Source: a bacterium
Lineage (GTDB): Bacteria > CG2-30-53-67 > CG2-30-70-394
DNA length: 7,840 nucleotides
NCBI GenBank assembly: GCA_024278555.1
Contig: JAJRSX010000086.1
Coordinates: forward strand, 1-7,840
Direction: 5' to 3'
The notes under the pieces are model-generated. The model did no database searches. It saw nothing but the letters and a program-made list of their open reading frames with translations, and was not told the DNA's origin. This document shows, piece after piece, positions 3,347-5,222 of the stretch; the stretch's first letter is position 1; the number at the start of each line of letters is the position of its first letter. The position numbers and the translations under genes are program-made.

Positions 3347-3370
3347 GGGGGCTCGCTGTGCTCGCAGGGG

Positions 3371-3545
3371 GTAGGGAGGTAGGGAGGTAGGGGCGGTCAG
3401 CCCTTCGGGCTGATGATTATGCCGATGGGGCGGCTGCAATACAGCGGCGGAGAAGCACGTGTCGATCGGGGAGACTGCCCACGAGTAAAAACTGTGGCCG
3501 CGAAGCGGCCATCCACCCCTACTTCCCTACTTCCCTACTTCCCTA
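3371..3545. repeat. Symmetrical element: inverted GTAGGGA-octamer arrays, each with a TTC-loop hairpin
   Basis: The left array (plus strand, 3371-3393) is two units of GTAGGGAG and a final GTAGGGG. The right array (minus strand, 3545 down to 3516) is TAGGGAA, two units of GTAGGGAA and a final GTAGGGG. The arrays point inward. Three nt after the left array comes a 7-bp hairpin TCAGCCC-TTC-GGGCTGA (3397-3413). Four nt after the right array comes a 7-bp hairpin TGGCCGC-TTC-GCGGCCA (minus strand, 3511-3495). The inner part 3414-3486 holds no gene and no other clear structure; an ATTATG at 3416-3421 could be a weak minus-strand -10 for pepP. The outermost TAG of the right array is the thiI stop codon. 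Confidence 0.7.
3487..3511 (-). terminator. Intrinsic terminator of thiI
   Basis: On the minus strand the 7-bp perfect GC-rich stem TGGCCGC/GCGGCCA with a TTC loop (3511-3495) is followed by CAG and then five T (3491-3487). It lies about 30 nt beyond the thiI stop and reads in the thiI direction. It is the same hairpin that forms the right half of the octamer element. Confidence 0.65.
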
Positions 3546-4715
3546 AGCCTCCGCCTCCACCACCCGCACCTCCACCTGTGCCAGGGCGGCGGCGAGGAGC
3601 GGCTCCAGCTCCAGGGCGTGCTCCACCGCGCTGAGCTTGCGGTCGGTGGAGCGGGTCGCCGGCTCCTTCGGCTCCAGGAAGGAGCAGCAGTCCTCGTGCG
3701 GCTCGATGGAGAGGTCGAAGGTGCCGAGCCTCTTGGCCTCGTCGATGATCTCCTCCTTGTCCCAGCCGAGCAGGGGCCGGAGGATCGGTATCGGTGAGCA
3801 GCGGTCCACCGCGGTGAGGTTGGCCAGGGTCTGGGAGGCGACCTGGCCGAGGGACTCGCCGGTGACCAGGGCCGGCGCCTTCAGCCGCCGGGCGATCTCC
3901 GCGGCGAGGCGCACCATCGCCCGCCGGTAGAGGAGCACCCGCAGGGACGACGGGGCGTGGCCGACGATGTGGCGCTGGATGTCGAGGAGGGGGATCTGGT
4001 GCAGCTCGCCGGGCCCCTGGTAGCGGCCGAGGAGCCCCACCAGCCCGACCACCTTCTCCTGGGAGGCGGCGTTGGTATACGGGAAGCTGTGAAAGTGGAC
4101 GAAGCTCACCCGGCAGCCGCGGCGCATCATCCGGGCGGCGGCCACCGGCGAGTCGATGCCGCCGGAGAGCAGCGCCACCACCTGGCCGCTCACCCCCACC
4201 GGCAGGCCGCGCCGCCCCTCCATCCGGTCGCAAAAGACGAAGCAGCGGCGGTCTACCACCTCGATCCGCACGGTCAGCGCCGGATCGCCCAGGTTGACCG
4301 GCCAGCCGGTCTCGCGGGCGACCAGCCCCCCGATCTCCTGGTTGATCTCCTGGGAGGGGTGGGGGAACGACTTGTCCGCCCGCTTTGCCCGCACCGCGAA
4401 GCTCGCCGCAGTGTGGCCCTCGATGACCCGCAGGGCGGCCTCGCGGATCGCCTCCATCTCCGGGGGGCAGGCGAGGGCGGGGGCGAAGTAGGCGATCCCG
4501 AAGACCCGCCGCAGCCGTGCGATCGCCTCCTCCTCGTGGCCCGGCTCCAGCTCCACCATGACCCGGCCGTAGAGGCGCCGCACCCGCACCGGGGAGATCG
4601 GGGCGAGTCCGTGCTCGATGTTGGCGATCAGCCGCCGCTCAAACAGCGGCCGGTTGCGCCCCTTGAGGCCGATCTCGGCGTAGTGGACGAGGAGACAGGG
4701 GGAGAGGTCGGCCAT
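3543..4715 (-). CDS. thiI: tRNA 4-thiouridine synthetase ThiI, without rhodanese domain
   Basis: This 390-residue enzyme adenylates U8 of tRNA and transfers sulfur to give 4-thiouridine; in many bacteria it also supplies sulfur for the thiamine thiazole. The N-terminal ferredoxin-like part begins YAEIGLKGRNRPLFE (12-26), the family signature, followed by a THUMP domain (about 61-165). The PP-loop SGGIDSP is at 184-190, then FVHFHSFPYT (205-214) and TGESLGQVASQT (285-296), both typical of ThiI. The protein ends at about the length of the rhodanese-less class; the E. coli enzyme is about 480 residues with a C-terminal rhodanese carrying the catalytic Cys456. A Cys pair in HEDCCSF (Cys343, Cys344) corresponds in position to the Cys344 region of E. 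coli. The ATG at 4715 gives the standard N-terminus; no Shine-Dalgarno is visible, the context being CTCACCCC then ATG. The stop TAG is part of the adjoining repeat array. Confidence 0.94.
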   Translation of the reverse strand: MADLSPCLLVHYAEIGLKGRNRPLFERRLIANIEHGLAPISPVRVRRLYGRVMVELEPGHEEEAIARLRRVFGIAYFAPALACPPEMEAIREAALRVIEGHTAASFAVRAKRADKSFPHPSQEINQEIGGLVARETGWPVNLGDPALTVRIEVVDRRCFVFCDRMEGRRGLPVGVSGQVVALLSGGIDSPVAAARMMRRGCRVSFVHFHSFPYTNAASQEKVVGLVGLLGRYQGPGELHQIPLLDIQRHIVGHAPSSLRVLLYRRAMVRLAAEIARRLKAPALVTGESLGQVASQTLANLTAVDRCSPIPILRPLLGWDKEEIIDEAKRLGTFDLSIEPHEDCCSFLEPKEPATRSTDRKLSAVEHALELEPLLAAALAQVEVRVVEAEA

Positions 4716-5137: not shown

Positions 5138-5222
5138 TGGGGTCAGGCTTGCAAACTTGCAAGTTTGGACCTCGCTGTCGGCCATCAACGGGCAAACTTG
5201 CAAGTTTGCAAGCCTGACCCCA
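5138..5222. repeat. Perfect 30-bp inverted repeat with 25-nt loop
   Basis: The left arm 5138-5167 and right arm 5193-5222 are exact reverse complements over 30 nt, around a 25-nt loop (5168-5192). The outer end of each arm is TGGGGTCAGG or its complement. Each arm also contains the perfect 14-nt palindrome AAACTTGCAAGTTT (5153-5166 and 5194-5207), and TTGCAA recurs, so each arm can fold on itself as well as pair with the other. No T-tract follows on either strand. The element lies 60 nt beyond the 3' end of the minus-strand gene at 5283. It has the form of a small non-autonomous mobile or REP-type element. Confidence 0.85.

Follow-up and report, generated by a model that had tools for sequence, protein, structure and literature searches.

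The DNA analysed here is a stretch of 7,840 nucleotides (the window) in which pepP and thiI, both encoded on the minus strand, are separated by a repeat element that fills the gap from the thiI stop codon to the pepP start codon. Its left half, read on the plus strand, begins with an inward array (3371..3393) made of two GTAGGGAG units (3371-3378 and 3379-3386) and a closing GTAGGGG (3387-3393), followed by the linker CGG (3394-3396) and by hairpin X (3397..3413), a 7-bp stem of sequence TCAGCCC-TTC-GGGCTGA that is represented by model R1 below. The right half has the same plan on the minus strand, where an inward array (3516..3546) composed of TTAGGGAA (3546-3539), GTAGGGAA twice (3538-3531 and 3530-3523) and a closing GTAGGGG (3522-3516) leads through the linker TGGA (3515-3512) into hairpin Y (3495..3511; TGGCCGC-TTC-GCGGCCA, read from 3511 to 3495), which also has a 7-bp stem and is represented by model R2. 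The predicted plan of mirrored octamer arrays, each closed by GTAGGGG and joined by 3-4 nt to a 7-bp hairpin with a TTC loop, is thus correct at every base, with two and three array units and linkers of 3 and 4 nt. The hairpins enclose a spacer (3414..3494) that exceeds the spacer of most copies by about 43 bp. An outer module, O (GCGAGCACAGCGAGCC; 3350..3365, minus strand), separates the left array from the pepP start codon (3346-3344) and lies immediately upstream of the latter. We set this start codon by the MDPATFAARR N-terminal beginning, which is conserved in the congener, the single second genome of the genus available for comparison. The thiI stop codon, TAG (3545-3543), lies inside the outermost unit of the right array.

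The arrays had been taken for something other than chance low complexity, and several observations bear this out. The array pattern GTAGGGRNGTAGGGR matches four times in the window and not at all in 200 dinucleotide shuffles, the pepP-thiI stretch folds with a z-score of -6.7 as RNA and -5.8 as DNA with none of 200 shuffles equally stable, and the core of the element recurs throughout the genome, as described below. An Rfam search of the window returned tRNA only and placed no family above its gathering score at the element.

To learn how often this arrangement occurs, we assessed the 3.06-Mb source genome by searches, by stretches around the matches and by five 20-kb controls. The exact array pattern has 19 matches in the genome, most of which adjoin a hairpin with a second, inverted hairpin further along. 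Covariance models built for each half yielded at least 144 matches for half X (R1) and at least 103 for half Y (R2) at E<=1 and, among the matches listed, a score cut and merging left at least 169 halves in 113 clusters. Within these clusters, again among the matches listed, 54 pairs are convergent and none divergent, mostly with one X and one Y, in agreement with the convergent repeat-plus-hairpin modules that had been suggested. A core model consisting of hairpin X, a conserved spacer of about 40 nt and hairpin Y detects at least 73 copies in the source genome and 4 in the congener, compared with none in 58 other genomes, six of which belong to the same class. Other copies therefore exist in number, and the pepP-thiI stretch is almost certainly one copy of a defined repeated element. 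A pattern scan of a set of genome contigs, partly checked, gave 26 stretches, among which there may be records of the source genome itself. We take these stretches to be palindromes that are unrelated or arose here and there by chance, and rejected a wide distribution. The element is best read as a lineage-specific, high-copy, BIME-like head-to-head heterodimer of REP-like hairpins, bracketed by inward G-rich arrays and in many cases also by an outward module O beside a gene start. Several elements lie close to contig ends, and at one of these (L146, at the end of contig C158) near-pure C follows directly after the element, which is probably an assembly artefact.

The consensus core is approximately GGACRGCCCTNCGGGCYGATGAGATGNCGATGGAAGCCACCCACGAAACAATCATCGCTGGCCGCGNAGCGGCCAACC, and both of its stems show compensatory exchange: in stem X one pair alternates between A-U and G-C (12 versus 11 sequences), and in stem Y the outermost pair alternates between U-A and C-G. 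Read in the head orientation, 78% of X loops and 65% of Y loops have the form TNC, with a middle base that varies, so that the TTC loop seen at the pepP-thiI locus is really a TNC loop, equivalent to a GNA triloop on the opposite strand. GNA triloops are unusually stable. At pepP-thiI the core spans 152 bp, compared with about 108 in most pairs, and the spacer holds an insert of about 43 bp that is unlike the (GTAGAAA)n GGGGG of other copies. The latter insert is found in the spacers of L084, L123, L120, L121, L125 and L158, where it lengthens the core by about 30-50 bp.

Outside the hairpins, the arrays point inward and consist either of 8-mers (TAGGGANN) or of 7-mers (TGRGGGR). Across the genome the 7-mer pattern matches 93 times and a reversed control never, 48 of the 62 merged heptamer sites have a detected half-element no more than 130 bp away, and array motifs are absent from 100 kb of control DNA. 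The left and right arrays of a copy agree in unit type (permutation p about 1e-4), and pairing is better for native arrays than for arrays exchanged among copies (p 0.001). Swapped arrays pair almost as well as native ones, and array pairing is in part a trivial effect of G-rich versus C-rich composition. In predicted folds, 52 of 53 copies have at least eight array-array pairs. Further out, the module GCGAGCRNAGCGAGCC has 60 exact copies in the genome versus none for its reversed control; 50 of these 60 have a half-element at a distance of 200 bp or less, and each of the 50 faces outward. Judging from its sequence, module O can fold as two GC pairs, two G-A mismatches and two further GC pairs closed by an RNA-type triloop. 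A different repeat, AGTCTGTCGGACTTATGCACRA, directly adjoins some elements (L063 at 1599, L071 at 1548, L150 at 1072 and L158 at 1047).

Next, we considered the genes that the element separates. By the rough calls of a simple GC-frame gene caller, it lies between 44 co-directional, 10 convergent and 3 divergent gene pairs; the pepP-thiI copy was counted as convergent owing to an antisense ORF and is truly co-directional. In co-directional settings hairpin X comes first in 34 cases and hairpin Y in 8 (p 7e-5), and the pepP-thiI copy, being one of these 8, runs against the majority. A TAGGG or TGAGG stop context was found in 45 of 68 genes facing the element, compared with 16 of 68 control genes (p 1e-6), which is consistent with arrays that provide the stop codon of the upstream gene or overlap it, as in thiI. 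The C terminus of thiI differs from that of its congener homologue, which ends with TAA. We also considered the arrays as a three-frame stop cassette. All frames are stopped on entry in just 22% of arrays (6% in shuffles), so this is no general rule and the idea was rejected.

Comparison with the congener shows that the element is present at some orthologous gaps and absent from others. Its core and array are lacking from the congener iscS-iscU gap (about 33 bp) and from the ftsE-ftsX gap, where an O-like remnant precedes ftsX, and the element is likewise absent from infB-rbfA and several further gaps. Of the compared loci, C12_11667 is occupied and C6_4843 half occupied in the congener, and the spacer common to the congener copies is particular to them (GATCATGACGG...GAGACCCC). 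This mixture of occupied and empty gaps, together with the congener-specific spacer, points, in this comparison of two species, to gain and/or loss accompanied by within-species homogenisation. At pepP-thiI itself, where an empty site in a relative had been sought, the 629-bp gap of the congener contains a convergent pair of hairpins immediately ahead of pepP, in which the stems and the spacer are different ones and the G-rich sequence is of the heptamer type. The gap is thus occupied in both species, with turnover of the element at the same site. Array unit type and number differ among copies and between the species at one locus, which is not the pattern of vertical descent without variation. 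The suggestion of a small mobile element is plausible in view of the filled and empty orthologous gaps, although neither a transposase nor a target duplication could be linked with the element: no target duplication was identified among the compared gaps, which are too diverged to define insertion borders. On balance, the element was probably mobile in the past.

The source genome encodes four Y1_Tnp/RAYT proteins. At least two of the RAYT genes have terminal inverted repeats of their own (L023, GGGGTCAGGCTTGCAA...; L020, GGGTCAGGTCTTG...), an arrangement that resembles the TIR-associated RAYTs in which a GGGGWSAS motif was described (PMC3733652). A PDB sequence search with one RAYT query gave no match. 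The window also contains, at 5140-5222, an 83-bp inverted-repeat mini-element (GGGGTCAGGCTTGCAAACTTGCAAGTTTG ... CAAACTTGCAAGTTTGCAAGCCTGACCCC), the ends of which agree with the terminal inverted repeats that flank the L023 RAYT gene and further copies of which occur in L156, L259 and two congener loci. From this match it is likely to be a non-autonomous relative of the L023 RAYT element.

These genes raise the possibility that the element is a classical RAYT-mobilised GTAG REP or REPIN, a non-autonomous REP pair moved by a tyrosine transposase of the genome and with arrays that are amplified GTAG tags. Besides the four encoded RAYT proteins, the head-to-head heterodimer with its conserved spacer, as in GTAG REPs, and the presence or absence of the element in different species speak for such an origin. 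By contrast, the surroundings of the four RAYT genes, and of the sampled RAYT genes of relatives, contain neither an X nor a Y half, and at least two of the four bear other terminal repeats, so that RAYT mobilisation is unsupported. RAYTs are, moreover, also present in class members without the element, the tetranucleotide at its stem is NNGG rather than GTAG, and 7-mer copies are wholly without GTAG. We consider this origin quite unlikely, while RAYT action on the element in trans is conceivable. Simple slippage is a further candidate, in which G4-type repeats expand on their own as selfish or neutral sequence and the hairpins are functionless passengers. The variation in array units and numbers noted above would be expected under slippage, similar G-rich heptamer repeats occur elsewhere without known function, and predicted G4 motifs are present in 26 of 53 left arrays and 32 of 53 right arrays, roughly half, versus 1% of background windows. 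Yet the arrays are tied to cores, the control DNA being free of their motifs, and they face inward, the pairing of the hairpins is conserved and the orientation of the element is biased relative to transcription, all of which makes slippage by itself unlikely.

Hairpin Y could also be the intrinsic transcription terminator of thiI, given that on the thiI-pepP sense strand it is followed by CAGTTTTTAC and that one terminator-like site, a marginal one, was observed versus 0.1 expected. However, the T tract begins 3 nt past the stem, and in the X-first majority of copies neither hairpin is followed by a T tract. A terminator therefore cannot explain the family, and we rejected intrinsic termination as its general function; for hairpin Y of the pepP-thiI copy, too, it is highly improbable. 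A less remote alternative, which is nonetheless rather doubtful, treats the tandem arrays as exchangeable arms that close a REP pair. The two arrays of a copy would be kept both alike and complementary, whereas their unit, 8-mer or 7-mer, would switch from copy to copy and, at a given locus, from species to species, and the arrays would also deliver the stop codon of the upstream gene, such that the whole forms a self-contained intercistronic boundary cassette.

Instead, we favour a composite repeat that acts as an RNA boundary, gains copies through a REP/MITE-like process and carries arrays that turn over, an explanation to which, taken as a whole, we assign a probability of roughly 0.6. In a transcript, the G-rich 5' array would pair with the C-rich 3' array to give a long outer stem enclosing hairpins X and Y, and this stem with its two side hairpins would constitute a structured boundary between co-directional genes. 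Such a boundary might shield the 3' end of the upstream mRNA and uncouple the neighbouring genes. Array units that contain TAG or TGA would often provide the stop codon of the upstream gene, so that an incoming ribosome would often halt at an array unit. New copies would arise through the REP/MITE-like process, and the arrays would turn over through slippage or conversion. For the intercistronic boundary function taken on its own, which draws on the predicted fold, the compensatory exchanges, the bias in orientation and the context of the stop codons, we put the odds slightly below even. Both the matching of arrays and the bias in orientation might stem from shared ancestry or from the way in which copies are made instead of an RNA function.

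Because the sister species carries a diverged parallel set of elements, orthologous gaps allow the turnover of arrays to be traced along with gain and loss, and the orientation bias and array-derived stop codons open the way to a test of a REP-like RNA boundary role. Among known repeat families, the closest likeness is to the GTAG REPs and BIMEs. The GTAG REP family has stems of 6-13 bp with a short loop and, in most members, GTAG (or GTGG) at the stem (PMC3733652, PMC2817692), head-to-head heterodimers with a conserved spacer have been described (PMC3733652), and a REPtron is a RAYT gene flanked by the same repeats (PMC3733652, PMC2817692). Our element resembles these in its short GC-rich palindromes with 2-4 nt loops, its many intergenic copies, its pairing of two different stems, for the most part head-to-head and around a conserved spacer, and its location mainly between co-directional or convergent genes. 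It differs in having NNGG at the stem, with GTAG confined to the array units of some copies, in lacking a RAYT gene flanked by the X or Y repeat, and in adding tandem G-rich arrays and an outward module outside the hairpin pair. Since it has neither GTAG at the stem nor a flanked RAYT gene, we do not file it as a GTAG REP. The same two-hairpin plan recurs in unrelated genomes, of Rhodobacterales (L196 at ~1820 and L192 at ~3165) and Propionibacterium (L184 at ~680 and L194 at ~6960), where convergent hairpin pairs lie inside long complementary outer arms and, as in our element, stems GGCCC..GGGCC and GGCCGC..GCGGCC face each other. There the outer arms are unique sequence and not tandem arrays, and these are apparently separate repeat families.

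The arrays, in turn, recall the G4 heptamer class of Xanthomonas and Nostoc, which has the unit GGGNATC or GGGGAYT and whose G-rich heptamer arrays, in Xanthomonas, are paired convergently in the gaps between aligned genes (PMC4692102). Shared with these repeats (PMC4692102) are the G-rich tandem units, the predicted G4 motifs, the intergenic and often convergent placement, the position near or overlapping a stop codon on the coding strand and near a start codon on the non-coding strand, and the occupation of the same gaps in sister species with varying lengths. Unlike them, our element has TGRGGGR or 8-mer TAGGGANN units, and each pair encloses a conserved two-hairpin core that is unreported in that paper, which raises the question of whether similar cores lie inside the convergent Xanthomonas array pairs. 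The original prediction knew of no named family with this plan. Both of its parts do have precedents (PMC3733652, PMC4692102), whereas no description of hairpin pair and arrays combined was found in the open-access literature searched, and the joining of a REP-like pair with a repeat-array layer appears to be new. One modular element, in at least 73 copies in this 3-Mb genome, thus unites two hitherto separate classes of bacterial intergenic repeats, the REP dimers and the G4-type heptamer arrays.
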